NCBI RefSeq assembly: GCF_004792515.1
Contig: NZ_CP038865.1
Location: 1,892,001 to 1,956,000 of the forward strand
Direction of reading: 5' to 3'
Length of the DNA stretch: 64,000 nucleotides
Source: Vagococcus xieshaowenii
Lineage (GTDB): Bacteria > Bacillota > Bacilli > Lactobacillales > Vagococcaceae
A program made the position numbers and the translations under genes. Of this stretch, positions 1 to 17,253 are shown piece by piece. Each line of letters opens with the position of its first letter. The stretch's first letter is position 1. The notes below the pieces were generated by a model. The model was not told the DNA's origin, searched no databases, and saw only the letters and a program-made list of their open reading frames with translations.

Positions 1-142
1 CTTGAAGCTTAACGACCTCTCAAGCACTCTTTGTAATCAGGCTTTTAGTCGCAACTTCCTCGGTAATAGGTCTGACCTCTAAAAAATTTTCAAATTTTTC
101 GTTGTTCTGTGCCTATTACTCGTAAGACTAAACACCCTCTTG

Positions 143-346
143 CCTACTAAAATTCGAAATCGCCGCCGCAGCGAAGCTTCGGTTGGGCACGGCGCTGCAT
201 GTGCCCACTATCCTTTGATGGTTACCTGTCACCACATATTCTGTCTCTCTGACCACGTCTTCCCTCTTGGGTGAACCATTCATTTACTGTTTCTAGACAC
301 GAACACACGTTCTGCCTATTGCTCGATGTCAGATACCAGATTAAGG
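143..346 (-). repeat. Conserved 3' flanking block of DGR target, copy 1
   Basis: A block of about 200 bp directly downstream (sense direction) of variable repeat 1. It recurs almost unchanged after the other two variable genes (4238-4424 and 11328-11531). Within the roughly 165 bp best aligned I count only 3 to 4 substitutions between copies. It covers the end of the coding sequence, the stop codon and a non-coding tail with two potential hairpins: GGGCAC...GTGCCC at about 185-206, and a CCG-rich hairpin at about 164-182. DGR targets are known to need sequence and structure just past the VR for homing; whether this block serves that role is inference. Confidence 0.8.
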
Positions 347-1938: not shown

Positions 1939-1971
1939 TGTGACATCCTCTCCTTTATGATTCTTATGCAT

Positions 1972-2313
1972 TTTTTCTATAGATAACCGTATTATTTTTC
2001 CCTTTTTTATCGTGAAAGCAACAGGGTGCTTGACCGATTAACCTTGATTGACTTCTTTCGTCCCGTCAATTAACTTGATTGCTTCTCTATGGTAGCGAGC
2101 GATTAAGCGAACGGTGTGGACTCTTGACCAGCACGACCAAAATTTTTCTAGCGTTCACACCCTATTGAACCAAGAGACATTGATGCGTATATCTCATTCA
2201 TCAACTAGAATGCCAAATGTTCGCGTTTGTCACGCTTCATTTGTTTGAAAGGTTGCTATCATTCGTTCATTACCACCACGTAATTTAGCCATTGACCTCA
2301 TTCTGTCAAAGAC
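1972..2313. other. Intergenic spacer with possible coding relic
   Basis: About 340 bp between two WxL genes. I see no strong terminator or promoter. On the minus strand a 20-codon open stretch starting MAKLRGGNERMI is followed by stops in all frames, which looks like a decayed gene end, but I cannot name the parent. Nothing else is supportable here. Confidence 0.3.
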
Positions 2314-3183
2314 TTACGCTTCGTTTGCTGGTTGGTTGGTTAATGTCCATGTTAACTCAGCTGTATAAGCGGTTGATTTCTTAACAGACGCGCCTGGTAC
2401 TTCTAATTGAACGGCCGTATTAAACCAATCTTGTCCGCTTACTTGACCGTCTTCACCAAGAACGTCAGCCTTCACTAAAGTCCCTCTAGTTTCTCCTAGT
2501 TCTTCCGTTACAGCTGTTCCACCATTTCCTGCTAGATAGAAGAATTGTCCGGCTCCGTGGCCTTCAGAGGCGGTCATCACCTCTACGCTAATTGCTTTTT
2601 CTTCCGTTGAAGGCTCAATAGCGAAGGCTTCTTTAGCTTCAATACCTGTTGTATCTGATGCAGAGTTAACAGCGCCATTGGATACATTGATTTTTGCGCC
2701 TTCTAATTCATGCTCTGCTTCATCTTTGAACGCTTGTGTTTGTTCAACTTTCAACGTCCAACCAGCTAGACTACCTGTGTTATCTGTAATTTGCACATAG
2801 TTAGGGTTGATGACTTTGACATCTGACCCTGTGATAGTTGATTTTGACGCGAATGCTGGATACGTTTCGTCACTGTTTGAGATTTTTTGAATGCCAAAGT
2901 TTAAGGTTGACACAAAATCAATCGTTAACGGACCTGTTTGGCCTGTTTCTTTATCTGGTTCGTCTGGTGTAATCTCTGGTGTCGTTGGATCTGGATTTTC
3001 TGGATCAGTTGGGTCGACGATAGGCGGTGATACCGGTGGATTCGTTGCCTCATCATCCACTACAAAGTGAACTTTCCCTTCGCTGGTTTCATTCGTTGTG
3101 ATTCCTTCTTCAGCAAATACCGCTGTGTTTAGACTGCCTAATACTAAGGTACTTAATAATAACGTGCTCATCATTTTTTTCAT
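2314..3183 (-). CDS. WxL domain surface protein (non-variable)
   Basis: Secreted protein of 289 residues. It has an N-terminal signal peptide (MKKMMSTLLLSTLVLG...VFAEE), an acidic Pro-rich linker of the PTDPENPDP type, and a WxL domain beginning at GPLTIDFVSTLNFG and ending in the distal motif LTWTLTNQ. It has no C-terminal variable domain, so it is not a DGR target. The ATG at 3183 is preceded by AAAGAGG at 7 bases and is preferred over an ATG at 3204. WxL proteins attach to peptidoglycan and work in complexes with DUF916 and LPXTG partners from the same cluster, both of which are present here. The proximal motif reads GWTLKV. Confidence 0.9.
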   Translation of the reverse strand: MKKMMSTLLLSTLVLGSLNTAVFAEEGITTNETSEGKVHFVVDDEATNPPVSPPIVDPTDPENPDPTTPEITPDEPDKETGQTGPLTIDFVSTLNFGIQKISNSDETYPAFASKSTITGSDVKVINPNYVQITDNTGSLAGWTLKVEQTQAFKDEAEHELEGAKINVSNGAVNSASDTTGIEAKEAFAIEPSTEEKAISVEVMTASEGHGAGQFFYLAGNGGTAVTEELGETRGTLVKADVLGEDGQVSGQDWFNTAVQLEVPGASVKKSTAYTAELTWTLTNQPANEA

Positions 3184-3202
3184 ATCATATCCTCTTTCCA
3201 TC

Positions 3203-3250
3203 AATAACTCTTTTAATAACTCTTTTAATAACTCTTTTAATAATTCTTTT
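3203..3250 (-). repeat. Four 12-bp tandem repeats between WxL genes
   Basis: The unit AATAACTCTTTT (plus strand) occurs four times in a row, with one C to T change in the last copy. It fills most of the 77-bp gap between the stop of the WxL gene at 3261 and the start at 3183, just upstream of the ribosome binding site. A change in copy number would alter intergenic spacing without touching either protein. Confidence 0.9.
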
Positions 3251-3260
3251 AGGTGGTTGG

Positions 3261-4139
3261 TTATGCCCCTTCACTTGCTGAAGGAATGGCTTCTAATGTC
3301 CACGTTAAATCTGTTTTATACGTTGTATCTTTCATCTTGATTGCGCTACCTGGGACGTCTAATTGGATATCTTTGCTAATTTGGTAAGGGATTTCCTTGT
3401 CTCCTACTTTTAATTCTGGGAAGTCTCCGTAACTCCCATCATCTTCTACTAACTCTTGACCTAGATTTAAGAACCATGTTCCGATTCCTTGTCCCTCAGT
3501 TGCCTCAACAAGGGTCATTTTAGTTCCCGGGTCCAATTCATGCTTTTCAATAGCATGGCCCTCTTCATTGGTCATCTTGATTTGTGGGGCTGCCGCTTCT
3601 TCATTCCCTGTGTTGGTCATCTTTAAGTGGTTGAACGTCAGCGCTGCGCCTTCTAATTCGCCTGCTGATGATGAGAATTGTTCCTCTTGAGTCACGCTTA
3701 AGGTCCAGCCTGCATCAGCTACCCCACGACCATCTGTTACTTGGACATAGTTATTCACAAAACGATAATCTGTTAAATCATTTTCTTCTGTTTCCTCATT
3801 ATAAGTATAAACCTTTGACGGTTGAGCCGCTGGGTGATACGTTTCATCATTACTTGAAATAGCTTGTGAACCGAAGTATAGTTTTGATACAAAGTCAATC
3901 GTTAACGGACCTTCTAGCCCTGTTCCTGGGTTGCCTGTATCTGGATTTTCTGGGTCTACTGGGTCAATCACCCCTCCACCATCTGGATCTAATGGATCCG
4001 TTGCTCCATCTTTTTCTTTATAATGAATCGCTGCTTCTGATGTCGCATCTTCAGGTTCGAATTCCGCCGCAAAGACTGCTGAGGTGTTGCTTAATACCAT
4101 TGTACTTAATAATATGAAGGCTAACACTTGTTTTCTCAT
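3261..4139 (-). CDS. WxL domain surface protein (non-variable)
   Basis: Secreted protein of 292 residues with a signal peptide (MRKQVLAFILLSTMVLSNTSAVFAAE), a DPLDPDGGG/DPENPDTG linker and a WxL domain from about residue 78 (GPLTIDFVSKLYFG) to the end. The two motifs are GWTLSVTQ and LTWTLEAI. It is closely related in plan to the WxL parts of the variable proteins but lacks their extra C-terminal domains. The ATG follows GAGGAG at a normal distance. It lies in the same direction as its neighbours and is probably co-transcribed with them. Confidence 0.9.
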   Translation of the reverse strand: MRKQVLAFILLSTMVLSNTSAVFAAEFEPEDATSEAAIHYKEKDGATDPLDPDGGGVIDPVDPENPDTGNPGTGLEGPLTIDFVSKLYFGSQAISSNDETYHPAAQPSKVYTYNEETEENDLTDYRFVNNYVQVTDGRGVADAGWTLSVTQEEQFSSSAGELEGAALTFNHLKMTNTGNEEAAAPQIKMTNEEGHAIEKHELDPGTKMTLVEATEGQGIGTWFLNLGQELVEDDGSYGDFPELKVGDKEIPYQISKDIQLDVPGSAIKMKDTTYKTDLTWTLEAIPSASEGA

Positions 4140-4237
4140 GTTTGTTACTCCTCTTTTATTATTTGATTTTATTTTTAAACGTTGTGTAATGGGCTTCGTG
4201 CCTTACACAAGCGTTGTTCCCCTATAAGTTTTCTAAA

Positions 4238-4424
4238 TAGCCGCCGCATCTTCGCTGCGGTTGGGCACGGCGCTGCATGTGCCCACTATCCTTTGATGGT
4301 TACCTGTCACCACCTATTCTGTCTCTCTGACCACGTCTTCCCTCTTGGGTTAACCATTCATTTACTGTTTCTAGACACGAACACACGTTCTACCTATTGC
4401 TCGATGTCAGATACCAGATTAAGG
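4238..4424 (-). repeat. Conserved 3' flanking block of DGR target, copy 2
   Basis: Second copy of the block described at 143-346. It begins at GCCGCCGCATC and runs to the end of VR2. It differs from copy 1 by about three substitutions in the 165-bp core. The CCG-rich hairpin is weaker here because its stem has changes, while the GGGCAC...GTGCCC hairpin is intact. Confidence 0.8.
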
Positions 4425-6043
4425 TAAAGCGCGGGGCGCAACCCGTTCGTGCCGCCCACGGTGTTGCTGATGACGCTGCCACCCGTGCTCACAGCGCGCG
4501 CGTAGTTACTAGTCGTACCAGGCGTGCGCAACCACCACCAATCAGCTGAACCATCGTATTTCGCGATTCTATCTACATCATTCTCCCACGTCGTCAACAC
4601 ATCCGCCGTACTTAACGCAAACGCCGTTGGCGTATTATTTCCATTAATGGTCGTTACATCAGTGATATCAGTATCACTTGTCTCTGTATGCGGCAAGTCC
4701 ACTCCCGATACAAACGTCCCTAAGGCACTTCCCGCAATGCTATTATCATAAAATGCCTTCATTTCACTCTCTAACGTTGAATTCGTATAATCATTACCGT
4801 CAGACTGTGTTGGATTAAACACAACTTCCTTCTTCTGTATCTCATCCGTCACCATTAAGACTTTGTTACGTTCATCTTCTTTCATGATTTTCCAGTCAAT
4901 TAATTGTCCCTCTTTGTCTGGAATTGCAATGACCTCATTTTTTACAAACGGTAAGACCGTTACGGTGCCTGTCTCGCTTTGTCCTCCTTGTGTCATCGCT
5001 GTAATCGTGATTTCAGTATTGTCTGCTAAATCTGACCCAAAGTAGAAGTAATTTGTCTCTGCGTCTACATACGTCTTATCAGAAGGTGCGCCTTCAATCC
5101 TATACGTTGTACCTTCCACGTTTGAACTTAATTTAAGTGGTTCAATCGTACGATGGGCACTTGTGGCAATCTCATCTTTCACATTTTTAATAGTAAAGGC
5201 TAAGGTTTCTTCTGGTGGAATCCCCGGCACATCCTGCATCGTCCATGTTAGGGTCGTGCGGTACTTTCCTTGTGAAACCTTTGTCGCACTTCCTGGGACA
5301 AGTAATTGCACGTCTTTACTCAACTTGCTAATCCCTTCTGCGTATTGACCATAAGAGCCATCGTTAGGGGTTAGTGTTTGTCCTAACTCGACAAACCATG
5401 TCCCAGCCCCTTCACCGGCTTGACCGTCAATTAATTGAACCGCTTCGGCTGGGTCTAACACATAGCGTCCGTCATGTTCTTCGGTACCATTAGGGTCTGC
5501 GGTTGTGGGAGGTGTTCCCCCGCCATCTGCAGTGGTTCTAAGCCCCAATGCGCCAATCGATAATTGTGCCCCGACTAATGGATCTCCTGCGGATGTTCTA
5601 AATTCATCGTCTTGTTTTACATATAATTTCCAACTTGCCTCACTGTCGCCACGATTATCCGTCACTTGGACATAGTTATTCACAAGGTCACGGGTCTCGT
5701 TGCCGTCCTCATCGACTTGTTTATACGGTTGGGCAGCGGCATAATACGTTTTATCCTCTTGCATCGTGGCTTGTTGTTTACCAAAGTAAAAATTAGACAC
5801 AAAATCTAGACGTAACATCCCATCGTTGCCTGTTGGCGGTAACGTTTCTTCTGGATTTTCTGGATCTAGTGGGGTAATCTCACTACCATCCCCTGGTAAT
5901 TGTGGGTTAGACGGATCCGCCTTTGACGTAAACGTTACGTCAGCTGGTGTAGTGCCTTCTAATGTATCAGCCGCTAATGTTAGGGGCATATTGCCTAAGA
6001 TGATGGTGCTGACTAAGCTCATCGTTAATAATTGTTTTTTCAC
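4394..6043 (-). CDS. DGR-diversified WxL surface protein 2
   Basis: Secreted protein of 549 residues with the same plan as the 316-1938 protein. The signal peptide covers 1-25, then an acidic linker (PLDPENPEETLPP). The WxL domain runs about 78-275 with motifs SWKLYVKQ and LTWTMQDV. An Ig-like stretch covers about 280-370. The C-terminal domain starts near LIDWKIMKEDE and ends in the variable segment and GLRPALYLNLVSDIEQ. The last 160 residues are nearly identical to protein 1 outside the VR, which implies cassette duplication or gene conversion. The start is GTG at 6043 behind AAAGGGGAAT. It lies directly downstream of the WxL gene at 6061-6840. Confidence 0.93.
   Translation of the reverse strand: MKKQLLTMSLVSTIILGNMPLTLAADTLEGTTPADVTFTSKADPSNPQLPGDGSEITPLDPENPEETLPPTGNDGMLRLDFVSNFYFGKQQATMQEDKTYYAAAQPYKQVDEDGNETRDLVNNYVQVTDNRGDSEASWKLYVKQDDEFRTSAGDPLVGAQLSIGALGLRTTADGGGTPPTTADPNGTEEHDGRYVLDPAEAVQLIDGQAGEGAGTWFVELGQTLTPNDGSYGQYAEGISKLSKDVQLLVPGSATKVSQGKYRTTLTWTMQDVPGIPPEETLAFTIKNVKDEIATSAHRTIEPLKLSSNVEGTTYRIEGAPSDKTYVDAETNYFYFGSDLADNTEITITAMTQGGQSETGTVTVLPFVKNEVIAIPDKEGQLIDWKIMKEDERNKVLMVTDEIQKKEVVFNPTQSDGNDYTNSTLESEMKAFYDNSIAGSALGTFVSGVDLPHTETSDTDITDVTTINGNNTPTAFALSTADVLTTWENDVDRIAKYDGSADWWWLRTPGTTSNYARAVSTGGSVISNTVGGTNGLRPALYLNLVSDIEQ
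4425..4548 (-). repeat. DGR variable repeat 2 (VR2)
   Basis: Matches the template at 10333-10453 with one in-frame TGG codon added. By hand count about 17 of some 20 substitutions are at template adenines. The non-adenine changes include TCG to ACG and a third-position T to C. The GC-rich end is identical to the template. It encodes the segment from SADWWWLRTP to TNGLRPAL in the 4394-6043 protein. Confidence 0.94.
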
Positions 6044-6060
6044 GATTTATTCCCCTTTCT

Positions 6061-6826
6061 CTATAGTTGACTGTCTGGCGCATCGGTTAACGTCCAGACA
6101 AACTCTGTTTGATAATTAACGGCATCTTTCGGTGTTGAACCAGGAATGAAAAATTGCACACCCGTATTCTTTTCTCTACCATCTGGTAAGGTGTCAATTT
6201 TCCCCCAGCTGTCTAGCCATGTGCCAAAGCCTTCACCTGAATCTGCCTGCATAACGACGGACATTTCACCTGGTGTTAGCGCGACATCATGGGCAGTTGG
6301 GCGTTGCGTGTCGTCCGTCACATTAGACGTCGCTTGACTCTCTACTAGACGAATTTCAGCCCCGTCAAGAACGGGATATTTCGCCGCTTGATTTTCAAAC
6401 TGAGCAAGTTGTTTAACAGTTAATCGCCAACCTGATGCGCCACCGCGTAAGTCAGTGACTTGTAAATAATTCGCTGTCTTCTTGTCTGTGTCGACTGCCG
6501 TGCCTTCGTCATTGGCATAATATTGTGGATTGGCATAATACGTTTGGTCTTTATTACTGATTTCATTGGTGCCAAAGTCAAACGTTGAGACAAAGTCAAT
6601 GGATAATGGCCCCGGTGTGCCTGGTTCTGGTTTACCTTCTGGATCGGTCGGATTCCACGGTGAAACGGGTACCTCTGGATCAGGGTTTTCTGGATGAAGT
6701 GGGAGCGTGGTGTCCTCACTTGGAATAAATTGAACATGGCCATTTGATGTGATGCTTGAGCTGTCTTCTTGAGCAAATGCGACTGTCGTGAAACTTGACA
6801 CTAACCATAAAGCCAATAAAGAAGGA

Positions 6827-6840
<14 letters not shown>
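6061..6840 (-). CDS. WxL domain surface protein (non-variable)
   Basis: Secreted protein of 259 residues. It has a signal peptide (MKKINPSLLALWLVSSFTTVAFAQE), a PLHPENPDPEVP linker and a WxL domain with GPLSIDFVSTFDFG at its start, GWRLTVKQ as proximal motif and FVWTLTDA as distal motif. The ATG at 6840 lies 10 bases after AAAGGAG. An in-frame codon at 6894 would give an implausible basic extension and overlap the LPXTG gene more deeply. The 14-bp overlap with the LPXTG gene upstream suggests translational coupling. Not a DGR target. Confidence 0.9.
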
Positions 6841-7345
<505 letters not shown>

Positions 7346-7362
7346 TCATTCTTCCTCCTTTT

Positions 7363-8364
7363 TTATTTCTTTTTCTTCACTAACAATAGAATAATGATCG
7401 CAAGTAATGCGGCAATCACGCCAATACCAATCATTAAATATAAATTTGTGTTATCTTCTTCGATTGACACATCTTTTTCGTTATATTTCTTTGCTTCTTC
7501 TGAGGTGATCTCGAAGTCTTTTTCTAGTGACCATTTATCACTCCCTGAGCTCGCTTCAATGTGCATGGTATATTTACCGGCTGCTAATTTCTTTCCTTCC
7601 ATGCGTAACGGGAAGGCCATCGTCGTGTTAGGTGCCATCTGGATACCCTCTTTGGTTGTTTCATAAAGCGTTTCACTCTTGCCTTGTTTGGTTACTTTCG
7701 CATCAACCTTTAGTTGATTCATGTATTTAGCGACTGGATTTTGTAAATAAGAATAAATCACGTTACGGGCATTTAATTGATCGGCTTCTACTTTATTTAA
7801 TTTCAAATCTGAGGGTAAGCTGTTGTCGTTCTCACGTAGTAAAACCGCAACAGAGTAGGCAAACTTATTTTCAATCGTCATCCCACCGGCTGTCTCGTCT
7901 TCTTTTTCTTCTTCCTCAACTTCTTTAAAGGTCAAGCCACCTGCGATTAACCCATCGAAGGCTTTTTCTGGCATTTCGATAGTTACTTTATAGTCATAGC
8001 TGCCATTCGCTGGGATTTTCACCGTTTGGCTATCGGCCTTCGCGATTTCTTTTAAGTTAGCGGGTGCTGTGTCATCCACAGTATCCTTCGTCTGGCCATA
8101 ATCCACCACCCCGTTAATATTCGTTGTCGCAGGCTCGATTAAGGCTTCTACCTCTATTTCTTTATCGCTATGGTTTTTAATCTTGGTCACTAAGGTTTGT
8201 TTCTGACCCGCTGTCATATCTAAATCGAAGTACGTGCTACCTTCGCGTTGGTTATCCGGCAACACCGTATCGACACTAAAATTCAATTCACTTGCTTGCG
8301 TACTCGTTACACCAAAAATCCCTACAGAACATAAAGATGTCATTAACAATACAAATTTCTTCAT
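7363..8364 (-). CDS. WxL-interacting protein, DUF916 and DUF3324 domains
   Basis: Protein of 333 residues. It has a signal peptide (1-24), a DUF916 domain (about 27-150, starting FSVDTVLPDNQ and containing YFDLDMTAGQKQTL), a DUF3324 domain (about 165-300), a C-terminal transmembrane helix (about 308-328, LMIGIGVIAALLAIIILLLV) and a KKKK tail. Proteins of this family sit in the membrane and bind WxL proteins and peptidoglycan. It is the first gene after the palindromic promoter at 8439-8503, so it probably heads an operon running through the LPXTG, WxL and variable genes. Confidence 0.93.
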   Translation of the reverse strand: MKKFVLLMTSLCSVGIFGVTSTQASELNFSVDTVLPDNQREGSTYFDLDMTAGQKQTLVTKIKNHSDKEIEVEALIEPATTNINGVVDYGQTKDTVDDTAPANLKEIAKADSQTVKIPANGSYDYKVTIEMPEKAFDGLIAGGLTFKEVEEEEKEDETAGGMTIENKFAYSVAVLLRENDNSLPSDLKLNKVEADQLNARNVIYSYLQNPVAKYMNQLKVDAKVTKQGKSETLYETTKEGIQMAPNTTMAFPLRMEGKKLAAGKYTMHIEASSGSDKWSLEKDFEITSEEAKKYNEKDVSIEEDNTNLYLMIGIGVIAALLAIIILLLVKKKK

Positions 8365-8438
8365 TATTTCTTCACTCCTATGTCATTATTTTCATTATTA
8401 AAAGGATTTACTCTACTAAACTTCTCAGTCCATTCATT

Positions 8439-8503
8439 AGTATGACAGAATTCAATTTTACGAACTGTTTTTTTTTTAGAAAAATTTTCTAAAAAAAACA
8501 GTT
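8439..8503 (-). promoter_or_regulatory. Promoter with large AACTG...CAGTT palindrome (WxL operon)
   Basis: On the minus strand a palindrome (8463-8503) has arms AACTGTTTTTTTT and AAAAAAACAGTT around an A/T core. Its inner edge CAGTTC takes the -35 place, followed by 17 bp and CATACT as -10 (8439-8444). The same layout occurs at 14053-14117 and 14535-14601. The poor -35 and the overlapping palindrome suggest dependence on an activator; the Mga-like regulator at 14703-16184 is the obvious candidate, by inference. Confidence 0.7.
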
Positions 8504-8594
8504 TGATTGCTGCCGCATCCTTACAACTTCATTATCACATAATTTAACAATCGCAACTGTTATATTTTGAGTAAAAATCATGAAGAACAAACAG

Positions 8595-9592
8595 TTACAA
8601 TCCTTCATTAAATGAACGAGAAGACGAGGGTAAATAGCGTTTAGAGAAGAAATAGGCCTTGCCTGTTTGTAAGTAATGGCGATAGGTCGTGACGTGTTCA
8701 TTGGCGAGTGGTTGATGTTTAAATTTTAGACGTAAGCGTCGTTTAATACGTTGTGGCAATACGTGATAACACCCTTGATTAGCCGTTAGTTGATACCGCC
8801 AACCTAGCCATTCTACCCCATTCTTCAACGGAAATAGTTGTGTTTTGCGCGGATGATAGGCGAGGCCAAGCTCCCATAAATGTTGGATAATGTGTTGGCG
8901 TGTCACTTGTAGGGCTTGCTTATCAGGATGAAGGAGAACCAAATCGTCCATGTAGCGCGCATAAAAACGATGCCCTAACTGCTGAACGATAAGCGTATCT
9001 AATGAATGAAGCGTGGCGTTGGCCCACCATTGACTCGTTTGATTCCCAAGGGGTAACCCTTTACCAGGTGAGGCATGATAACTTTCAATGATTTGATAAC
9101 ATAACCCTTTTACCTCTTCTGGATACGGGGCACTAGCGATGAATTGTTTTAATCTAGCATGCGGGATACTATCATAAAAATGACGAATATCAACACGTAA
9201 GACGTAACACGTAGCTTTGTCGTGCGAGCTAAGTTGATGAATAAACTGGCGTAAGTTGCGACGTGCATACGACGTCCCCCTTCGCCGACGACAAGCCGCC
9301 GTGTGAGGCAGTAAGAACGGCTCCGTATAAGGTATAATATAACGCTGACACAGGGCATAATTCACAAGACGATCGACAAAAGTTGACGCTGAAATGACGC
9401 GGCGCTTAGAGTCCGTTACTACAAAAGTCCGATAACCTCCGTGTTGATAGGCGCCTTCTTTCAAGGCAGATAAGATAAGAGAACAGACAACTGATGAGAC
9501 AAATCATACTCAAACGCCACGACTTCAGGATGCTGACGTTTACCTTTACGACAATGTTGATAGGCCCGATATAAGTCAACATAATCAAACAT
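8595..9592 (-). CDS. DGR reverse transcriptase, frame interrupted by 5-bp duplication
   Basis: Reverse transcriptase of the DGR class, which copies the template RNA with errors at adenines. Motif 4 reads LGNQTSQ, the DGR form rather than the QGxxxSP of group II introns. The catalytic centre is YMDD with VDIRHFYDSI as the first Asp motif. Translation from ATG 9592, overlapping the upstream gene by 8 bp, gives a typical DGR-RT N-terminus (CRKGKRQHPEVVAFEYD) and stops at codon 44. The rest reads in another frame. The plus strand carries GATAA twice in tandem at 9469-9478. Removing one copy restores a single 330-residue frame (...SVLLSALKEGAYQ...) with YMDD at about 212-215. As read, the only long frame starts at TTG 9464 and lacks 41 N-terminal residues. 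Confidence 0.93.
9469..9478 (-). repeat. GATAA tandem duplication breaking the RT frame
   Basis: The plus strand reads GATAAGATAAGA, two full 5-bp units and part of a third. One unit removed gives an uninterrupted reverse transcriptase; two units put the N-terminus and catalytic part out of frame. It could be a slipped-strand mutation, a reversible phase switch, or an assembly error. Confidence 0.85.
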
Positions 9593-10127
9593 GTGTGTCT
9601 AACCTCTTGACACACGCTAAGAGCGATTCGCCAAAATCCGCTACCTTCTTCTCCGACATTCCGCTCACCAAAGTCAATGCCTCAAGGGTTTGAGGACGTT
9701 GGCTCACTAACGCTTCCAATGTGGCATTCGAACAGATAATAAACGGCGAAACCCCGTTTAATTTAGCTTGCGCCTGACGCCACTGCCTTAACTGCTCAAA
9801 CCAACGGTCGTGTGTAGAGGCATCAAGCATTTGAGAACATTCTTCAAGCGGCACCAAAATACCTTCCCACCCTAAGGAGGTTAATCGTAACAGTTGAAGA
9901 TTGCCACGTTGTCTATAGCCCACCAACCCTTCCGTTATGAACTGGTCAATCATCTGTTCGATGGCTTCTTTACGATAGTTTTTCAAACACCCACGTTCAC
10001 ATCGGGTTATTTCTTGAACTTCTTCTTTCAATTGATTGCCTTTTAACACCTTCACCGTAGTCGTCTTACCGAATTGTCCGCCTAACTTGGCAATCACACG
10101 TAGAACACATTGTTTGTCTCTTTCCAT
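9585..10127 (-). CDS. DGR accessory protein, RecQ-tail type (RQC + HRDC)
   Basis: Protein of 180 residues that resembles only the C-terminal part of RecQ helicases. Residues about 5-95 look like the winged-helix RQC domain (VLRVIAKLGGQFGKTTTVKVLKG and later LRLTSLGWEGI). Residues about 108-178 match an HRDC domain (FEQLRQWRQAQAKLNGVSPFIICSNATLEAL, then SGMSEKKVADFGE). No helicase motifs are present. HRDC proteins are a known minor class of DGR accessory genes. The likely job is binding nucleic acid, perhaps the cDNA, TR RNA or VR hairpin, with the RT whose start it overlaps by 8 bp. RBS AAAGGAAAGG lies upstream of the ATG. Confidence 0.85.
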   Translation of the reverse strand: MERDKQCVLRVIAKLGGQFGKTTTVKVLKGNQLKEEVQEITRCERGCLKNYRKEAIEQMIDQFITEGLVGYRQRGNLQLLRLTSLGWEGILVPLEECSQMLDASTHDRWFEQLRQWRQAQAKLNGVSPFIICSNATLEALVSQRPQTLEALTLVSGMSEKKVADFGESLLACVKRLDTHV

Positions 10128-10153
10128 CTAACCTTTCCTTTCTAATACAAAAT

Positions 10154-10179
10154 AAAAAGGGGCAGAATCGTTTCTGCCC
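10154..10179 (-). terminator. Rho-independent terminator after the TR spacer
   Basis: On the minus strand GGGCAGAA, a 4-base loop and TTCTGCCC are followed by CTTTTT. It lies between the template repeat and the RQC-HRDC/RT genes. It probably defines the 3' end of a separate TR RNA of the Avd-side transcript and lets only part of transcription reach the RT. Confidence 0.85.
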
Positions 10180-10332
10180 GCGTATGAACGGCGTGTGAAT
10201 CACAACCGCTACTTATCACACTCTTTTTATATTTTTTTCTATCCTTAGGGATAAAAGGGAACCTAAACTCCTTTAATCGTGATACTGACAAGGGGCACGT
10301 GCCACTTGTTGCGGATTCTTTGGGATTAAAGC
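10180..10332 (-). ncRNA. Spacer downstream of TR, putative part of DGR RNA
   Basis: Non-coding segment of about 150 bp between the TR and the terminator. In the Bordetella phage DGR a spacer of similar size 3' of the TR is needed to prime and template cDNA synthesis. Here it contains the perfect palindrome GGCACGTGCC (about 10295-10304) and short inverted repeats such as TGTGAATCACA. The role is inferred from position. Confidence 0.55.
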
Positions 10333-10457
10333 TAAAGCGCGGGGCGCAACCCGTTCGTGTTGTTCACATTGTTGTTGTTGACGTTGCCATTCGTGTTCAC
10401 ATTGCGCGCGTTGTTACTAGTCGTATTAGGCGAGCGCAACCACCAATTAGCTGCTTT
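10333..10457 (-). repeat. DGR template repeat (TR)
   Basis: This 125-bp repeat starts just after the Avd-like stop codon. In the register used by the variable genes it has 40 codons, of which 15 are AAC or AAT. AAY codons can change to many amino acids by adenine mutation without giving a stop, the hallmark of DGR templates. The flanking framework is identical to the VRs: TGGTGGTTGCGCTCGCCT at one end and GGGTTGCGCCCCGCGCTTTA at the other. Matching VRs are at 347-471, 4425-4548 and 11532-11661. Identity with the VRs stops right after CTTTA. Confidence 0.96.
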
Positions 10458-10460
10458 CGT

Positions 10461-10841
10461 TTAGTCCCCATCCGGGGAGATTCTTTTTTGGTCGGAGGTT
10501 AGCCAGCGATAGACTAACTTCCGACAACTTTCTAATGGTTCGACTAATGACAGGTAATCTTTTTGAAGAAGGCAGCCTGTTTCAAAACCTAGCTCAACCA
10601 TGAAACCAAGTAGTTTCAAATCCGTCATGACTTGACGCTGATAAGTTTGACGTGTGTGGAACGTTTCTTTCTCAAGCGGGAGCTCATTGGCTTGGTAAAT
10701 CCCTTCAACCACCCCTAAAGTGAGCGTCTGCATTTTCCCAACCAAGCTAAAGCGGAAGTGCTTGGGACTTGATTGCGTAACACGAAAGATTAACCGAGCT
10801 AACGCTTTGGCACTAGCGGCAACATAAAATTCTTCTGCCAT
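10461..10841 (-). CDS. Avd-like DGR accessory variability determinant
   Basis: Basic helical protein of 126 residues fitting the Avd / 23S rRNA intervening-sequence four-helix-bundle family. It has the typical motif PKHFRFSLVGKMQTLTLGVVEGIY at about 26-49 (described here in part: PKHFRFSLVGKMQ), and a late helix with GFMVELGFETGCLL. Avd forms a pentamer that binds the RT and the template RNA and is needed for cDNA synthesis in the Bordetella DGR. The gene order Avd, TR, RT matches that system. The stop codon is 3 bp from the TR edge, and the start is 3 bp after the preceding RNase H-like gene. Confidence 0.85.
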   Translation of the reverse strand: MAEEFYVAASAKALARLIFRVTQSSPKHFRFSLVGKMQTLTLGVVEGIYQANELPLEKETFHTRQTYQRQVMTDLKLLGFMVELGFETGCLLQKDYLSLVEPLESCRKLVYRWLTSDQKRISPDGD

Positions 10842-10843
10842 TT

Positions 10844-11314
10844 CTAAAGCTCTCCTTCAAAGGGGACTTGCGTATACAAGGCTTGCTTGGCTAGATACTT
10901 ACTGTATCTGGCATTAAACGCTTGACTTTTGCCACTAATCAAACGACAACGGACGTCGTCAAATCGTTTAAGCTCATGACGCAGGTCCCGCCATTCTTTT
11001 TGGTTCTTGACGGGTTTATTTTGTTTGGTTAGCCATTGTTGTTGGGCCCATTCCTCTAAATAACCTTTGGTTAGGGCATGATAAAGATAACTCATCGAAG
11101 TATAAAGTTGCACTGGGCGATGAGGGTGTTGAATCATCCCTAGGGCTGTCGCCACCCCTTCTAAAAGCCCAACTTGCAGACTAACACCAGGTGTCACCTT
11201 GGCATAGGTTTTACGATGTTGCCCTGACTGTAAGACAATCCCACAACTAGTGTACACCTCATCAAAAACCGCGTCACTCTTGACTACACTGATGTAACAG
11301 TTTATCTCTGTCAT
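10844..11314 (-). CDS. RNase HI-like protein without catalytic acids, DGR-linked
   Basis: Protein of 156 residues. By eye it aligns over most of its length with RNase HI. The block EEWAQQQWLTKQNKPVKNQKEW (about residues 85-106) matches the helix and basic-protrusion region, where the E. coli enzyme has KKPVKN followed by a DLWQRL helix. LLEGVATAL fits the region of the catalytic Glu, and YTSMSYLYHAL fits TDSQYVRQG. The four catalytic positions (D10, E48, D70, D134 in E. coli numbering) read as non-acidic residues here. It may bind RNA-DNA hybrid or the template RNA without cutting. It sits 3 bp upstream of the Avd-like gene, which ties it to the DGR. The family call is inferred from motif order and needs a profile search. 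Confidence 0.6.
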   Translation of the reverse strand: MTEINCYISVVKSDAVFDEVYTSCGIVLQSGQHRKTYAKVTPGVSLQVGLLEGVATALGMIQHPHRPVQLYTSMSYLYHALTKGYLEEWAQQQWLTKQNKPVKNQKEWRDLRHELKRFDDVRCRLISGKSQAFNARYSKYLAKQALYTQVPFEGEL

Positions 11315-11327
11315 CCCTACTCTACCC

Positions 11328-11531
11328 CCTACTAAATTTTGAAATCGCCGCCGCAGCTTCGCTGCGGTTGGGCACGGCGCTGCATGTGCCCACTATTCTT
11401 TAATGGTTACCTGTCACCACCTATTCTGTCTCTCTGACCACGTCTTCCCTCTTGGGTGAACCATTCATTTACTGTTTCTAGACACGAACGCACGTTCTGC
11501 CTATTGCTCGATGTCAGATACCAGATTAAGG
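11328..11531 (-). repeat. Conserved 3' flanking block of DGR target, copy 3
   Basis: Third copy of the block seen at 143-346 and 4238-4424. The CCG-rich hairpin is perfect here: CCGCAGC, loop GAA, GCTGCGG at about 11350-11366. The GGGCAC...GTGCCC hairpin is conserved. It differs from copy 1 by about four substitutions in the 165-bp core although the genes they follow differ strongly, so the non-coding tail is better conserved than much of the coding sequence. Confidence 0.8.
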
Positions 11532-13930
11532 TAAAGCGCGGGGCGCAACCCCTTCACGTTGTCCACATAGGCGAACCAGAGGGTAGTGCCCTGCGTGTCC
11601 ACATAGCGCACGGCGTTGTTAAAAGTCGGCCTAGGCGAGCGCAACCACCACCAATCTCTCTCACCCTCGTAGTCGTACGCTACTCTATCGAAGCCTTTCG
11701 TCTTCGTCACATCCCAATTAGTTAACGCAAACGCCGTTGGCGTATTATTTCCATTAATGGTCGTTAAATAATCTTCATCCGTATTCGGCAAGTCCACTCC
11801 CGATACAAATGTCCCTAAGTCACTTCCCGCGATACGTTCCTCATAAAATGCCTGCATCTCACGCTCTAACGTTGAGCCTGTATAATCATTACCGTCATCC
11901 AGTGTTGGATTAAACTCAACTTCCTTCTGTATCTCATCCGTCACCATTAAGACTTCATTGTTGCTATCTTTCATGATTTTCCAATCAATCCCTGCTTGGT
12001 TGATGATGTCATTCGTTTCAAATGGCGCAATCGTTACCGCATAGCGTACCACTTCTTTGCCACTTGTCACACGAACAATCAATTCTCCTACTTGTTCGTT
12101 CAAGCCAACTGTCAATTCACCCGTTGTATCGTTGATAGTTGTATCTTTTGACGTCGCATTTTCCAAGCTATACGTTGGACTAGATAAATCACTTTCAATC
12201 GTCACGGCTTGCCCTTGTGTGAAGTTCCCTGCATCATCTTTTGTTAAGTTCAATCGTTTCACACTTCCCCATGCAATCGGATCTGGGTCTGGGATTTCAT
12301 TCCCCGGGCCATCCGCTAAGGTCCATAATACCGTTCCGCTATACGTGCCTGTTTTGGCTTCACTAGCCTTCATATCTAACGTCAGTTTATCCGCTAACTC
12401 AACCGTTTTTTCCTCTGATTGACTGGCTTCTTGTGAATAAACAATAGCCGATGTGTCACTGTTAATTAATTCTTTTCCTTCTTCCGTTTGGACGTAAACA
12501 TGTTGATTTAAGACATGGTTGTCTTGTGCTTCATTAGTCAAATCCTGCACCATTGACGCTTGGACATGCCAGCTTGGCTCTTCTAAGTCTTCACGGTTAT
12601 CGGTCACTTTTAGGTCACCAGTAATACTTGCTGGATAACTACCTGCATCGCTAATATCCAACTGACCAAATGAAACCGTCTCAGGCAGGGACGTAAAACT
12701 TAAACCATCCGTGATATCTTTGACCGTTAACTCGGTGGTTGCTTCAAAGGTTTCACCTTTTGACGCATAGGTTAGCGTAATGTCTTGTTCACCTTTGTCT
12801 TCCGTCTTAACCGCTTTGACGTTTTTAATCTCAACGTCTTGAGCCTCTATACTAGATGGATTGCCATAACCGTCTGTTAGGCTGTCGATAAATAAACCTG
12901 GGTCAACGTCTTCGTCTTGATAAATCGTCGCTTCTTTGACGGTCATCCCTAATTGTTCGACGATGTACCAATCAGTGGTTGGTTGCTTTTCTTGGTAGTT
13001 GACGACTAAGTCTTGGTTGGTCACTGGCACTTGATTGAAGTGGCCCTCTTTATCTTTGGTTGACCATTTGCCTGTGGTATCTGTTGGTGCGTTTAACGTG
13101 TCAAAACCACTCTCTGATTGGAACGTGAAGTCTTCACCAAGTCTGATGTGGATTAAGTTGTCTAAGCCTTCAAACATCGCCTTCATGTCGGTGATTTTTT
13201 CAGTATTAAATACGCTTAAATCTAGGCTTGTCAAGGCGTGACTGTCTTTAAAGAAATTAGCTAAGCTAGTGGCTTCTTTAGTGTTAAGATTGTCTAAGCC
13301 GTTGATTGTTTTTAGCGAAGTGAAACCGCTAAATAGACCGGCTCCCCCTTCATCGATTAACTCGATAGTGCCTTTTATTTCAATCGTTTCGATTGACGCG
13401 ATGTCCACACCGGCCGCTTCGAAATAGCTGTAGGCTTCCGGTTGCTTAGCATCTGTCTTCGTCGCCTCGTCCAGACGCGCGGTTTCAATGATTAAGGTGT
13501 TCCCTACCACTTCATAAGTCACCTCATTCGTGGTAACAGGGGATGTTTCTTCTTCCTCTGTGGCTACCGTTGTTTCTGTAGCATCCGTTGACGCTTCTTC
13601 TGATGCCACTGTCGTTTCAGTTACATCAGAAGAGGCTTCCTCACTAGTCTGAGTCGAAGCTATGTCTGATTCTTCCACCACTTCAACGGTTTCTTCCGTA
13701 CTCTGTGGTGCCTCCTGACTACTTTCTTGCGTCACGTGACTTTCTTGAATCAATTGTTCGGCTAGTTCGCTGGTGGCTAGTGTACTTTGAATCGCTTCTG
13801 CACTGACCTCATCTGCTGATAATGGTTGCGCGTTATGGGCGTTACTAATTCCTTGTACCGCAACGCTTCCCATTGTTAAACCGATTAACCCGACAACGCC
13901 AATTTTTTTGTGTAAATGATTTCTTTTCAA
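11501..13930 (-). CDS. DGR-diversified BspA-LRR/WxL surface protein 3
   Basis: Large secreted protein of about 809 residues. After a long signal peptide comes a Ser/Thr/Glu-rich stretch with ASEEASTDATETTVA-like repeats (about 55-145). Next is a BspA/DUF285-type leucine-rich segment (about 165-280, SLKTINGLDNLNTKEATS and LTSLDLSVFNTEKITDM), then a bacterial Ig-like domain and a WxL domain (SWHVQASM and VLWTLADG motifs, about 430-590). An Ig-like strand region and the variable lectin-like C-terminal domain follow. The start is probably TTG 13930, 9 bases after AGGAGG; an ATG at 13948 lies upstream of that site. It heads the DGR operon and has its own palindromic promoter. LRR plus variable domain suggests adhesion. 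Confidence 0.9.
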   Translation of the reverse strand: MKRNHLHKKIGVVGLIGLTMGSVAVQGISNAHNAQPLSADEVSAEAIQSTLATSELAEQLIQESHVTQESSQEAPQSTEETVEVVEESDIASTQTSEEASSDVTETTVASEEASTDATETTVATEEEETSPVTTNEVTYEVVGNTLIIETARLDEATKTDAKQPEAYSYFEAAGVDIASIETIEIKGTIELIDEGGAGLFSGFTSLKTINGLDNLNTKEATSLANFFKDSHALTSLDLSVFNTEKITDMKAMFEGLDNLIHIRLGEDFTFQSESGFDTLNAPTDTTGKWSTKDKEGHFNQVPVTNQDLVVNYQEKQPTTDWYIVEQLGMTVKEATIYQDEDVDPGLFIDSLTDGYGNPSSIEAQDVEIKNVKAVKTEDKGEQDITLTYASKGETFEATTELTVKDITDGLSFTSLPETVSFGQLDISDAGSYPASITGDLKVTDNREDLEEPSWHVQASMVQDLTNEAQDNHVLNQHVYVQTEEGKELINSDTSAIVYSQEASQSEEKTVELADKLTLDMKASEAKTGTYSGTVLWTLADGPGNEIPDPDPIAWGSVKRLNLTKDDAGNFTQGQAVTIESDLSSPTYSLENATSKDTTINDTTGELTVGLNEQVGELIVRVTSGKEVVRYAVTIAPFETNDIINQAGIDWKIMKDSNNEVLMVTDEIQKEVEFNPTLDDGNDYTGSTLEREMQAFYEERIAGSDLGTFVSGVDLPNTDEDYLTTINGNNTPTAFALTNWDVTKTKGFDRVAYDYEGERDWWWLRSPRPTFNNAVRYVDTQGTTLWFAYVDNVKGLRPALYLNLVSDIEQ
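11532..11661 (-). repeat. DGR variable repeat 3 (VR3), diverged
   Basis: Shares with the TR the GC-rich end, the WWWLRSP framework and TTTAACAACGCC-like internal stretches, but needs two or more in-frame insertions. These are an extra TGG shared with VR2, an extra GTG, and one more codon in the GNVNNNN region. Many differences are not at template adenines. It looks like an older or recombined target, or one written from a different template. Confidence 0.8.
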
Positions 13931-14052
13931 CGTCTGTCTCCTCCTCATAATGTTTAGTTTATCTATTGCTTCTTTCTAATATTGCTGACGTAGACTCTTT
14001 CTTTTGACAAACTGGTCCTCTTCTTTGCTTTACATGACACAGTCCATTTAAT

Positions 14053-14117
14053 AGTATGACAGAATTTATTTTTACGAACTGTTTTTTTTTGAAAATATTT
14101 TCCTAAAAAAAACAGTT
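14053..14117 (-). promoter_or_regulatory. Palindromic promoter of variable gene 3 / DGR operon
   Basis: The palindrome at 14077-14117 (AACTG...CAGTT with T and A runs) overlaps CAGTTC as -35. After 17 bp comes CATACT as -10 (14053-14058). The stretch from the palindrome through ATTCTGTCATACTA to GGACTG is nearly the same as at 8430-8503, so these two promoters share ancestry and probably a regulator. The 5' leader to the TTG start is about 115 bases. Confidence 0.7.
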
Positions 14118-14148
14118 CAGCAGTATGCACGACACCTTAATAAAGGAC

Positions 14149-14502
14149 TTAACTGACTAAATCAAATAAAGTTGGTACTTGATCATCGCCTGAGAAACGA
14201 TAGTTTTCTTTCATAAAAACCTTGTAGTCATTAGATTGTAATCTCATAATCTCATCTTCTGTTAAGTCCTCATCATCAATAAACGAAAAGATTATTTGTA
14301 AGCGTGCGTCTAATCCAAAAAGTTTGCCCAAGCATTCAAAACTAGACTCTGCTGAAAGATTTTCTAAGTGATGCGTCATCTCGGTTAAAATTATTTCTAT
14401 TTCATGGACCAATTTGGTTTTGGTATGGTATTGCTTGCATACATCATGAAAGAAGGCAAAATAGACTTCTTGTGTTAACGCTTTGCTGGTAGACGGCTTC
14501 AT
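14149..14502 (-). CDS. Hypothetical protein
   Basis: Protein of 117 residues that I do not recognise. It is mostly helical and acidic, with no signal peptide or membrane segment: the N-terminus MKPSTSKALTQEVYFAFFHDVCKQYHTKTK is polar and the middle has an EDEDLTEDEI-like acidic helix. The ATG follows AAGGAGG at 7 bases. It is the first gene after a third copy of the palindromic promoter and lies between the Mga-like regulator and variable gene 3. A regulatory role in the WxL/DGR locus is possible but unproven. Confidence 0.7.
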   Translation of the reverse strand: MKPSTSKALTQEVYFAFFHDVCKQYHTKTKLVHEIEIILTEMTHHLENLSAESSFECLGKLFGLDARLQIIFSFIDDEDLTEDEIMRLQSNDYKVFMKENYRFSGDDQVPTLFDLVS

Positions 14503-14534
14503 GTCTATCCCTCCTTATATTACTCTATAATCGT

Positions 14535-14601
14535 ATTATGCCATAGGCGCCTCACAATGAACTGTTATTTTTTTAATAAAATTTAGACAAAATAAACAGT
14601 T
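14535..14601 (-). promoter_or_regulatory. Palindromic promoter of hypothetical gene 14149-14502
   Basis: The palindrome at 14560-14601 has AACTGTT and AACAGTT arms around an A/T core. It is followed by 18 bp and CATAAT as -10 (14535-14540), about 30 bases before the ATG. The core sequence differs from the other two sites but the arms and geometry are kept, as expected for a protein-binding site. Confidence 0.65.
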
Positions 14602-14650
14602 CGGCAAGTTTCTATCTACTAAAACGCACCAAATGAGGCATTATTGACTC

Positions 14651-14690
14651 AAAAAAAACGCTAGAGAACTATCATAATAGTTCCCTAGCG
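14651..14690 (-). terminator. Terminator of Mga-like regulator gene
   Basis: On the minus strand CGCTAGGGAACTAT, loop TATG, ATAGTTCTCTAGCG are followed by eight T. There is one mismatch in a 14-bp stem. It ends the transcript of the regulator gene that stops at 14703. Confidence 0.92.
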
Positions 14691-14702
14691 CGATAACTAA
14701 GT

Positions 14703-16184
14703 TTATTCATCTTTTATGACTAATGCATTCAGGGCTTTTCTTTTTTCCTGTCTAACCCATACAATGATTCTATCTAAGATAGTGTAAGAAAAGTAGTGAC
14801 TGATCCTAATAATATTTTCTTCATCGCATCCGTCTAATAATAAATTCGTGATAATCAAATTACCCGATTGTTTCAAATCAGCTAATGATTCTTTTTTTTC
14901 GATAATACGAATATCGACATAATCCCCTAATTCAAACTCAATTCTAGTTTTAATATATTCCGCATAATACACATCATAATCAACATAAATCAAGATATTC
15001 ACTTTTAATCGTTCTCTTATTTCTTCTATAAACACATGATTAAACCGTGTCTGTAACAAATAAAAAGCAAAAGGAAAATAGTGCGTTTTACTAGCGTCAA
15101 TGTGTTTATCATACAGCTTCTTAATCGCAGGAATAATATCTTTCACTAACAAATCAGCATTCTCTACGAAATTCACATACTCGTTATTGACCACAACAAG
15201 ATCTATAACCTCTTTAGTTAAAGACAAGTAACCAAAAATGCCATCATACATATCGCGGCAGACGAGTTGTTTGATTTCTTCATTGATAGGTAAATTAAAT
15301 AACGTTTCTACTTCGGTTACAAAGTCATAAATAGAAAGTAATTCTGGATGATCTTTTAGTTTAAGCTTTTTATAATTACTAACCTTAAGAAAATCATTAT
15401 GTAAGAACGCAGAAAAAACATTCTCAATAAACTCAACCGATAAACTATTTGGGATTTTATGTACACCAAGGAATGGAACATTAGAAAGTACGTTGGATAG
15501 TTTTAAAAAGGCTGGTAACGCTTTACCCACTTTCCTAACAGAAGCCATCGAGTGGCCGTGTTTCTCCCGTGTTAGTGCCACTAACGATAACAGTTGGAAA
15601 TTCAAGCGTTCTTGAAGGGACTTATTCCGATGAGCAAATGGAATATCAAGGTCATAAAATTGATCAATGTATTGTTTTTCTTCCTCTTTAAATGGCGTAT
15701 TACTTAGACCGTACGTTTCTTTGAATAATCTAAAAAACAACACACGAATCGTTCGTTCGTCCCCTTCCAGTCGAAGGGGACGCGTTAGGATAGCACAATC
15801 CATCAAGGCTAATTTTTCATTTAGTCTCGCGATGATTTTTCTTATGGTTGATTCACTGACAAATAGTTCGAGCGATAGTGTCAGATAACTCATATCTTCG
15901 TTAAAAAAAATCTGTTCCAATAAATGATATTCAAGACTTTGAGATAAAATTTTAGAAATACAGCCATCATAAGATAGATTATTATTAATGTTTAATGTAA
16001 TATCAACCTTTTGTATGAGGATGATAGGCTCACCTATGATAGCATTGAGATCACTGATTAACTTATTTAAATTATTTCGTGAAATATCAAACATCTTGCA
16101 TAACTCTTCATAAGTATAGTTACGTTCCTTCAACATTTTTATTAATTGAATACACAATCGATCTCTATCAGACAGTAATAACAT
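14703..16184 (-). CDS. Mga/AtxA-family transcriptional regulator
   Basis: Protein of 493 residues. The N-terminal helix-turn-helix region (about 1-60, LIKMLKERNYTYEELCKMFDISRNNLNKLISDL) and a second Mga-type winged helix (about 75-120, LSLELFVSESTIRKIIARLNEKL) are followed by PRD-like helical domains and a C-terminal EIIB-like part (LKVNILIYVDYDVYYAEYIKTRIE). Proteins of this type activate surface-protein genes in streptococci and enterococci and often sit beside their targets. It probably controls the palindromic promoters at 8439, 14053 and 14535. The start ATG is at 16184 behind GGAGGCAGCGCTTC. Confidence 0.88.
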   Translation of the reverse strand: MLLLSDRDRLCIQLIKMLKERNYTYEELCKMFDISRNNLNKLISDLNAIIGEPIILIQKVDITLNINNNLSYDGCISKILSQSLEYHLLEQIFFNEDMSYLTLSLELFVSESTIRKIIARLNEKLALMDCAILTRPLRLEGDERTIRVLFFRLFKETYGLSNTPFKEEEKQYIDQFYDLDIPFAHRNKSLQERLNFQLLSLVALTREKHGHSMASVRKVGKALPAFLKLSNVLSNVPFLGVHKIPNSLSVEFIENVFSAFLHNDFLKVSNYKKLKLKDHPELLSIYDFVTEVETLFNLPINEEIKQLVCRDMYDGIFGYLSLTKEVIDLVVVNNEYVNFVENADLLVKDIIPAIKKLYDKHIDASKTHYFPFAFYLLQTRFNHVFIEEIRERLKVNILIYVDYDVYYAEYIKTRIEFELGDYVDIRIIEKKESLADLKQSGNLIITNLLLDGCDEENIIRISHYFSYTILDRIIVWVRQEKRKALNALVIKDE

Positions 16185-16428
16185 GAAGCGCTGCCTCCTA
16201 TTCTTAGGCTCTTTATTAACTCATTTATTCTTTATAAACACAAAAAGTATAACATGTAGTTAAATAGAAAGTAAACGTATTACTATTTCACCACAAGCAA
16301 GCTGAATTGGTTCACCTTAAATAACGTTTGTTTTATATTTCAAATACATGACATTTCGTCTCTTTTAAAAAAAACGTTAGTTATTATGCCATAATGAACA
16401 ATGAAAAAAATATTAAGGGGAAAAACAA

Positions 16429-17253
16429 ATGAAACAGGCTCTAAAAACAGCATTAATGGTCACACCTTTTGTTGCCACGACCACACTCATTTCTGCTGAT
16501 GCAGAAGAAATAGCCGCTATCGGCGAAGAAATTCATGAGAGCAACCTCACCACCAGAAAGGGGAACACACAAACTTTTATAGACTCGATTGCCTCTCAAG
16601 CGCAAGCAGTCGCTGCAGCAAATGATTTGTACGCTTCTGTTATGATTGCCCAAGCTTGTTTAGAAACAGGTTACGGTACAAGTTCATTAAGCCAAGCGCC
16701 AAACTACAATTTATTTGGAATTAAAGGTGCCTATAACGGACGATATGTGACCATGCAAACTTGGGAAGATGATGGGAAGGGAAATGCTTATTGGATAGAC
16801 GCAAATTTCAGGAAATATCCATCATTTAAAGAAGCCTTTAATGACAACGCTCATGTATTGAAAACGACAAGCTTTTCTTCAGGTCATTATTATTATGCAG
16901 GTGCTTGGAAAAGCCAGACGACCTCCTATAAAGAAGCAACTGCTTGGCTAACTGGACGATATGCAACAGATACCGGCTATGGAGGGAAATTAAATGCCAT
17001 TATCGAAACTTACCAGCTTAGCCAATATGATTCACCTGGTAATGAGACAGGCGGAGGCACTACCGAAAACAATACTAATCTCTCAACAGAGGACAAAAAA
17101 CACACGGTAGTTTCAGGAGATACGCTTTACGCTATTGCGAAACAACATCATACAACAGTTGCCGCCATTAAGACATGGAACAAATTAAAAACAGATACTA
17201 TCTATATTGGGCAAACACTATTGGTATCAGCAAAAAAAAACGCCAGAAACTAG
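16429..17253 (+). CDS. Secreted N-acetylglucosaminidase with one LysM (truncated)
   Basis: Cell-wall hydrolase of the AcmA/AtlA glucosaminidase family, 274 residues as read. A signal peptide covers 1-25. The glucosaminidase domain covers about 45-205, with the catalytic Glu in AQACLETGYGTS and the motif NYNLFGIKGAY. A LysM domain covers about 225-268 (HTVVSGDTLYAIAKQHHTT...IYIGQTLLV). The frame ends soon after a run of nine A (17232-17240), and two further LysM repeats follow in the next frame. With eight A the protein would run on to 17614 (about 394 residues). It may still be active, with weaker wall binding. AGGGG precedes the ATG. It stands alone, divergent from the Mga-like gene. Confidence 0.9.
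   Translation: MKQALKTALMVTPFVATTTLISADAEEIAAIGEEIHESNLTTRKGNTQTFIDSIASQAQAVAAANDLYASVMIAQACLETGYGTSSLSQAPNYNLFGIKGAYNGRYVTMQTWEDDGKGNAYWIDANFRKYPSFKEAFNDNAHVLKTTSFSSGHYYYAGAWKSQTTSYKEATAWLTGRYATDTGYGGKLNAIIETYQLSQYDSPGNETGGGTTENNTNLSTEDKKHTVVSGDTLYAIAKQHHTTVAAIKTWNKLKTDTIYIGQTLLVSAKKNARN

Follow-up and report, generated by a model that had tools for sequence, protein, structure and literature searches.

Organization of the DGR locus

The window analysed here is a 64-kb stretch (64,000 nucleotides) of the Vagococcus xieshaowenii contig NZ_CP038865.1. A DGR locus was found on its minus strand, where the parts follow one another in the order target gene, RNase H-like gene, avd, template repeat (TR), structured spacer, RQC-HRDC gene and reverse transcriptase (RT) gene (Table 1). 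The stop codon of the RNase H-like gene is separated from the avd start by 2 bp, and the ribosome-binding site of avd (AAGGAGAG) sits inside the 3' end of the RNase H-like gene. The Avd assignment comes from a match to phrog_3206; the scores against Pfam (bAvd) and NCBIfam are below the respective cutoffs. The RQC-HRDC protein aligns to positions 404-589 of RecQ (TIGR01389), i.e. to the C-terminal half without the helicase. The segment between the RNase H-like gene and the nearest target gene belongs to a 241-nt repeat, copies of which are located downstream of the second variable repeat (VR2) and downstream of VR1, and this segment is likely to serve as a homing-site flank and as the leader of the RNase H-like gene. 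An Rfam scan of positions 1-16,500 of the window yielded no match.

Table 1. Features of the DGR locus and its targets (positions refer to the window)
Feature	Position	Strand	Remarks
Third target surface protein, with VR3	316-1971	-	Related to the VR1 target
VR3	343-459	-	17/34 TR adenines changed, 3/75 other positions, P 5e-8
Target protein (WxL + DUF6273), with VR1	4394-6043	-	
VR1	4421-4537	-	16/34 TR adenines changed, 2/75 other positions, P 4e-8
RT, remainder (289 aa, other frame)	8595-9464	-	phrog_1423, E 2.1e-63; RVT_1
RT, N-terminal part (43 codons)	9461-9592	-	ATG at 9592, TGA at 9461-9463
RQC + HRDC protein (180 aa)	9585-10127	-	PF00570, 4.3e-19; PF09382, 3.3e-7
Structured spacer 3' of TR	10128-10330	-	Fold z = -3.5
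Terminator-like hairpin closing the spacer	10160-10179	-	Terminator scan
TR core (109 nt)	10333-10441	-	
Avd, divergent (126 aa)	10461-10841	-	phrog_3206, E 3e-11; bAvd, 8.6e-4
RNase H-like gene (156 aa)	10844-11314	-	ATG start; RNase HI homology, catalytically dead
Probable leader/flank segment downstream of VR2	11326-11500	-	Within 241-nt repeat (92%); GC hairpin
Target surface protein, DUF6273 C-terminus, with VR2	11501-13948	-	
VR2	11528-11650	-	16/34 TR adenines changed, 8/75 other positions, 6 nt inserted

The region that contains the WxL/surface genes and the three DGR targets (positions 1-14000) has a GC content of 0.44-0.46 for most of its length, compared with 0.31-0.40 to the right of 14 kb, and is likely to be an acquired island. 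A DNA search of plasmids and phages with the whole locus gave no match. A 78-nt repeat (88%) with a long A/T hairpin was also observed, at 8426-8503 and 14040-14117; its two copies lie upstream of two operons, the one with the DGR and target genes and the next one for surface proteins. At up to 3 mismatches, the 27-nt core of this repeat was found at no other site in the genome. The repeat is possibly a shared regulatory site (an Mga-like regulator is encoded at 14703-16184) or an element boundary.

Variable repeats and reverse transcriptase

Three VRs were found in a search of the whole genome, all of them within the window, in the genes of three surface proteins with related C-termini. The 6 nt inserted in VR2 consist of two 3-nt insertions, and non-adenine changes are more numerous in this repeat than in VR1 and VR3; VR2 may be an older or differently templated VR. 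Because the VRs depart from the TR mainly at adenines, the RT was active recently, and the locus is a genuine, recently active DGR.

The start of the RT gene overlaps the stop of the HRDC gene by 8 nt, and its first 43 codons resemble the N-terminus of DGR RTs. The remaining part, in the other frame, contains the motifs LPLGNQTSQ and RYMDDL (YMDD) that mark a DGR RT, and the DGR RTs found elsewhere are at best about 40% identical to this RT. In the GCF_004792515.1 assembly, the gene is thus frameshifted near 9461-9464, which is either a real lesion or an indel error of the assembly.

An RNase HI homologue upstream of avd

The 156-aa product matched RNase_H of Pfam (PF00075) with an E-value of 2.2e-8 (34.8 bits, above the cutoff of 25.8), and the RNase H family was also the best one in the PHROG search (E 1.4e-9). 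In a sequence search of the PDB, the best match was 3h08, the RNase HI of Chlorobium tepidum (E 2.6e-9), and hhalign aligned the product to RNase HI with an E-value of 1.2e-11. The NCBIfam model for ribonuclease HI gave an E-value of 2.6e-13 but only 49.8 bits, so that the equivalog cutoff of 160 bits was not reached. RNase H was the only Pfam family above cutoff and RNase H families were the only ones matched in NCBIfam, with no match to the Avd, HRDC or MSL families. Judged by these sequence comparisons, the product is a true RNase HI homologue, the match being far above chance.

An AlphaFold model built from an alignment of this protein with 14 phage RNases HI had a pLDDT of 92.9 and a pTM of 0.87 and displayed the canonical order of elements. 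When compared with RNase HI structures by Foldseek and VIA-align, the model gave Z-scores of 19-21.8 over 142-146 residues, with 21.8 for Chlorobium 3h08 and about 20 for E. coli RNase HI. Since the input alignment consists of RNases HI, the model is not independent of homology. The model obtained from the single sequence was uninformative (pLDDT 35), and the fold assignment is therefore based on homology together with the alignment-based model.

Loss of catalytic and substrate-reading residues

The protein was compared with 26 RNases HI from phages, Bacillota and E. coli. The E. coli sequence in the alignment was verified through its length and the numbering of its residues. The catalytic set D-E-D-H-D is retained in 26 of 26 comparison sequences, and the RNase H-like protein reads S-L-S-K-K at these positions. 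Gapless alignment and alignment to the E. coli enzyme both gave the replacements D10 to S9, E48 to L50, D70 to S73, H124 to K129 and D134 to K139. At the equivalents of N16, T43, N44 and N45, which in structures of RNase H with its hybrid are the positions that read the RNA and DNA strands, the protein has A, S, L and Q, respectively, and AQQ takes the place of the basic KKR in the handle. The scaffold of the handle, W..W..PVKN..W, has been kept (W85, W90, P97-V98-K99-N100 and W104 in E. coli numbering; the kept W89, W94, V102, N104 and W108 in the numbering of the protein itself). Among the 35 near-invariant columns, defined as those conserved in at least 85% of real RNase HI enzymes, 10 are retained, none of which is catalytic or substrate-reading. 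The branch leading to the protein amounts to 10 changes per column against a median of 0.46, about twenty times as long, although a branch of this length is poorly measured. Such a long branch together with an intact frame suggests a prolonged freedom from catalytic constraint rather than recent decay.

The earlier note on this DNA, made from the letters and their translations, had described an RNase HI-like protein next to Avd in a DGR operon, with all four catalytic acids apparently lost, and had proposed a structure prediction against RNase HI as a check. The position of the gene just upstream of avd, with the TR, VRs and RT in place, agrees with this description, as do the database matches and the alignment-based model, which has an RNase HI fold. 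The loss of the four acids was confirmed position by position, and the catalytic histidine has been lost besides.

The host genome carries a second RNase H gene elsewhere, with its acids intact, so the dead copy is not the sole RNase H of the cell. As a RecQ-like open frame of 621 aa is likewise present separately in the same genome, the two extra accessories of the DGR look like disarmed copies, one of an RNase H and the other of a RecQ.

Distribution among genomes and DGR loci

A second copy of the RNase H-like gene was found neither in the genomes of the family (29), the order (395) and a Bacillota sample (388) nor in IMG/VR and the phage and plasmid collections, and single-protein patterns, which pick up only close relatives, detected no homologue when run against 84,980 species genomes. 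The matches listed in these searches were all ordinary-looking RNases HI, with identities of 37% or less in the aligned stretches, and the best 11 Bacillota matches had an intact D-E-D-H-D set in 11 of 11 cases. The protein is thus known from one example (n = 1). Another phage RNase H-like ORF (locus L148, 2995-3414) adjoins a terminase-like gene and seemingly lacks the active-site acids.

About 140 other DGR-RT loci were taken from sets of viruses, genomes and Bacillota. Their flanks, scanned over up to 6-8 kb, showed no RNase H or HRDC neighbour. Because no HRDC neighbour occurred at any of these loci, the scan covered DGRs outside the HRDC-type clade. HRDC matches in phage records were considered as candidate DGRs and rejected, as they proved to be RecQ/UvrD-type helicases.

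Possible role of the RNase H-like protein

We consider that the protein may be a nuclease-dead subunit with an RNase HI fold in the ribonucleoprotein formed by RT, Avd and TR RNA. It would then resemble the inactive connection (tether) domain that retroviral RTs possess, except that it is made as a separate protein; we would give this reading a probability of roughly 0.45, the highest among the explanations considered. The protein would be co-translated with Avd, would join the particle of RT, Avd and TR RNA, and might form a scaffold or clamp there, close to the cDNA-RNA duplex as it emerges. Because it cannot cut, the TR RNA template would stay intact during mutagenic copying, and removal of the RNA would be left to host enzymes. 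Conceivably, K129 and K139, which stand where the metal was bound, could make metal-free contacts with phosphates. The tight junction with avd, the intact ORF, the lost catalytic set and the presence of three VRs in a DGR of working type favour a subunit role. The single example, the loss of the substrate-reading residues and KKR, the frameshifted RT and the lack of an RNase H-like neighbour at all other DGR-RT loci examined count against it.

The RNase HI fold, the partly kept handle, the pI of 9.2 and the missing catalytic residues would also be compatible with a non-cutting holder or protector of the RNA-DNA hybrid, and the RT product of the BPP-1 DGR is indeed a covalent hybrid of cDNA and TR RNA (PMC12875486). 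However, with N16, T43, N44 and N45 replaced, and the basic KKR in the handle as well, classical hybrid recognition is unlikely to have survived, and we regard this explanation as an unlikely one. The suggestion in the earlier note that a non-cutting version might protect or hold the template or hybrid is consequently upheld in its first part, a non-cutting RNase HI fold, and weakened in its second. Judged by the same residues, a scaffold or a partner of RT or Avd would fit at least as well as hybrid holding, and the subunit reading is ranked above the hybrid protector because it is the hybrid-reading residues themselves that have been lost.

Slightly less likely again is a domesticated RNase H-fold protein that regulates the surface-protein genes or is an unrelated passenger with no part in the DGR. 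Such a passenger would be in keeping with the occurrence of the gene in one DGR only, other DGRs managing without it, and with the acquired appearance of the island. It is less easily reconciled with the placement of the gene between target and avd, its coupling to avd and its location on the same strand as the TR RNA and the RT, and no other function was found near the gene. The frameshift in the RT gene could alternatively mean that an ordinary, active RNase H was recruited by the DGR and is now eroding along with the RT. This seems improbable, since the ORF is intact, the hydrophobic core pattern and the predicted fold are kept, the catalytic positions are all substituted in an unbroken frame, and the predominance of adenine changes in the VRs speaks for a recently active RT. 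It is very improbable that the protein is still an active nuclease whose catalytic site has moved, because the four metal-ligand columns contain no acid and both D134 and H124 have become lysine, although D14, D18, E19 and E52 are close in sequence to the former active-site elements.

If the preferred reading, a nuclease-dead subunit of the RT-Avd-TR ribonucleoprotein, is extended to its origin, the DGR would have recruited and disarmed an RNase HI and turned it into a trans-acting subunit of the connection or tether type, independently of and in parallel to retroviral RTs and beside a helicase-stripped RecQ. This wider proposal is more tentative, with the odds against it. The presence in one DGR of an RNase H that cannot cut and of a RecQ C-terminus without helicase draws attention directly to the handling of the hybrid, in a process by which the cDNA has to be separated from its RNA template and moved to the target.

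Comparison with known systems

The protein shares with bacterial and phage RNases HI, such as E. coli RnhA and 3h08, the fold, the order of strands and helices and the handle motif, and differs from them in the replacement of the five catalytic positions and the Asn/Thr recognition positions and in its extremely long branch. Inactive RNase H1 reagents are expected to retain the hybrid-binding residues that the RNase H-like protein has lost. The likeness between the two lies in a non-cutting RNase H, and catalytically inactive RNase H1 is described as an R-loop reagent (PMC12134985).

In the literature covered here, the accessory proteins reported for DGRs are Avd, HRDC and MSL (PMC4891356, PMC10053308). 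Like them, the RNase H-like protein is small and has its gene inside the DGR cassette, and the RQC-HRDC protein recalls the DGRs of Treponema denticola, in which HRDC overlaps the RT (PMC4891356, PMC10053308). None of the three named accessories is RNase H-like, which for these bears out the remark in the earlier note that no such DGR accessory was known, and the text of the 2021 global DGR survey contains no mention of an RNase (PMC8144416). The locus is a DGR with an unusual accessory, whose novelty, judged against the literature covered here, is not certain. An RNase H fold would enlarge the still small set of DGR accessories, and the parts found here form a testable set.

In retroviral RTs, a former RNase H has become the connection domain, which is inactive and touches the primer strand (PMC8387031, PMC9040795). 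Both it and the protein described here are inactivated RNase H domains, and a partnership with RT is inferred for the latter. The retroviral domain is fused to the RT, between the thumb and RNase H, and is of independent origin, whereas the RNase H-like protein is encoded by a separate ORF. If the latter works with the RT, it would represent a bacterial parallel to the retroviral connection domain.
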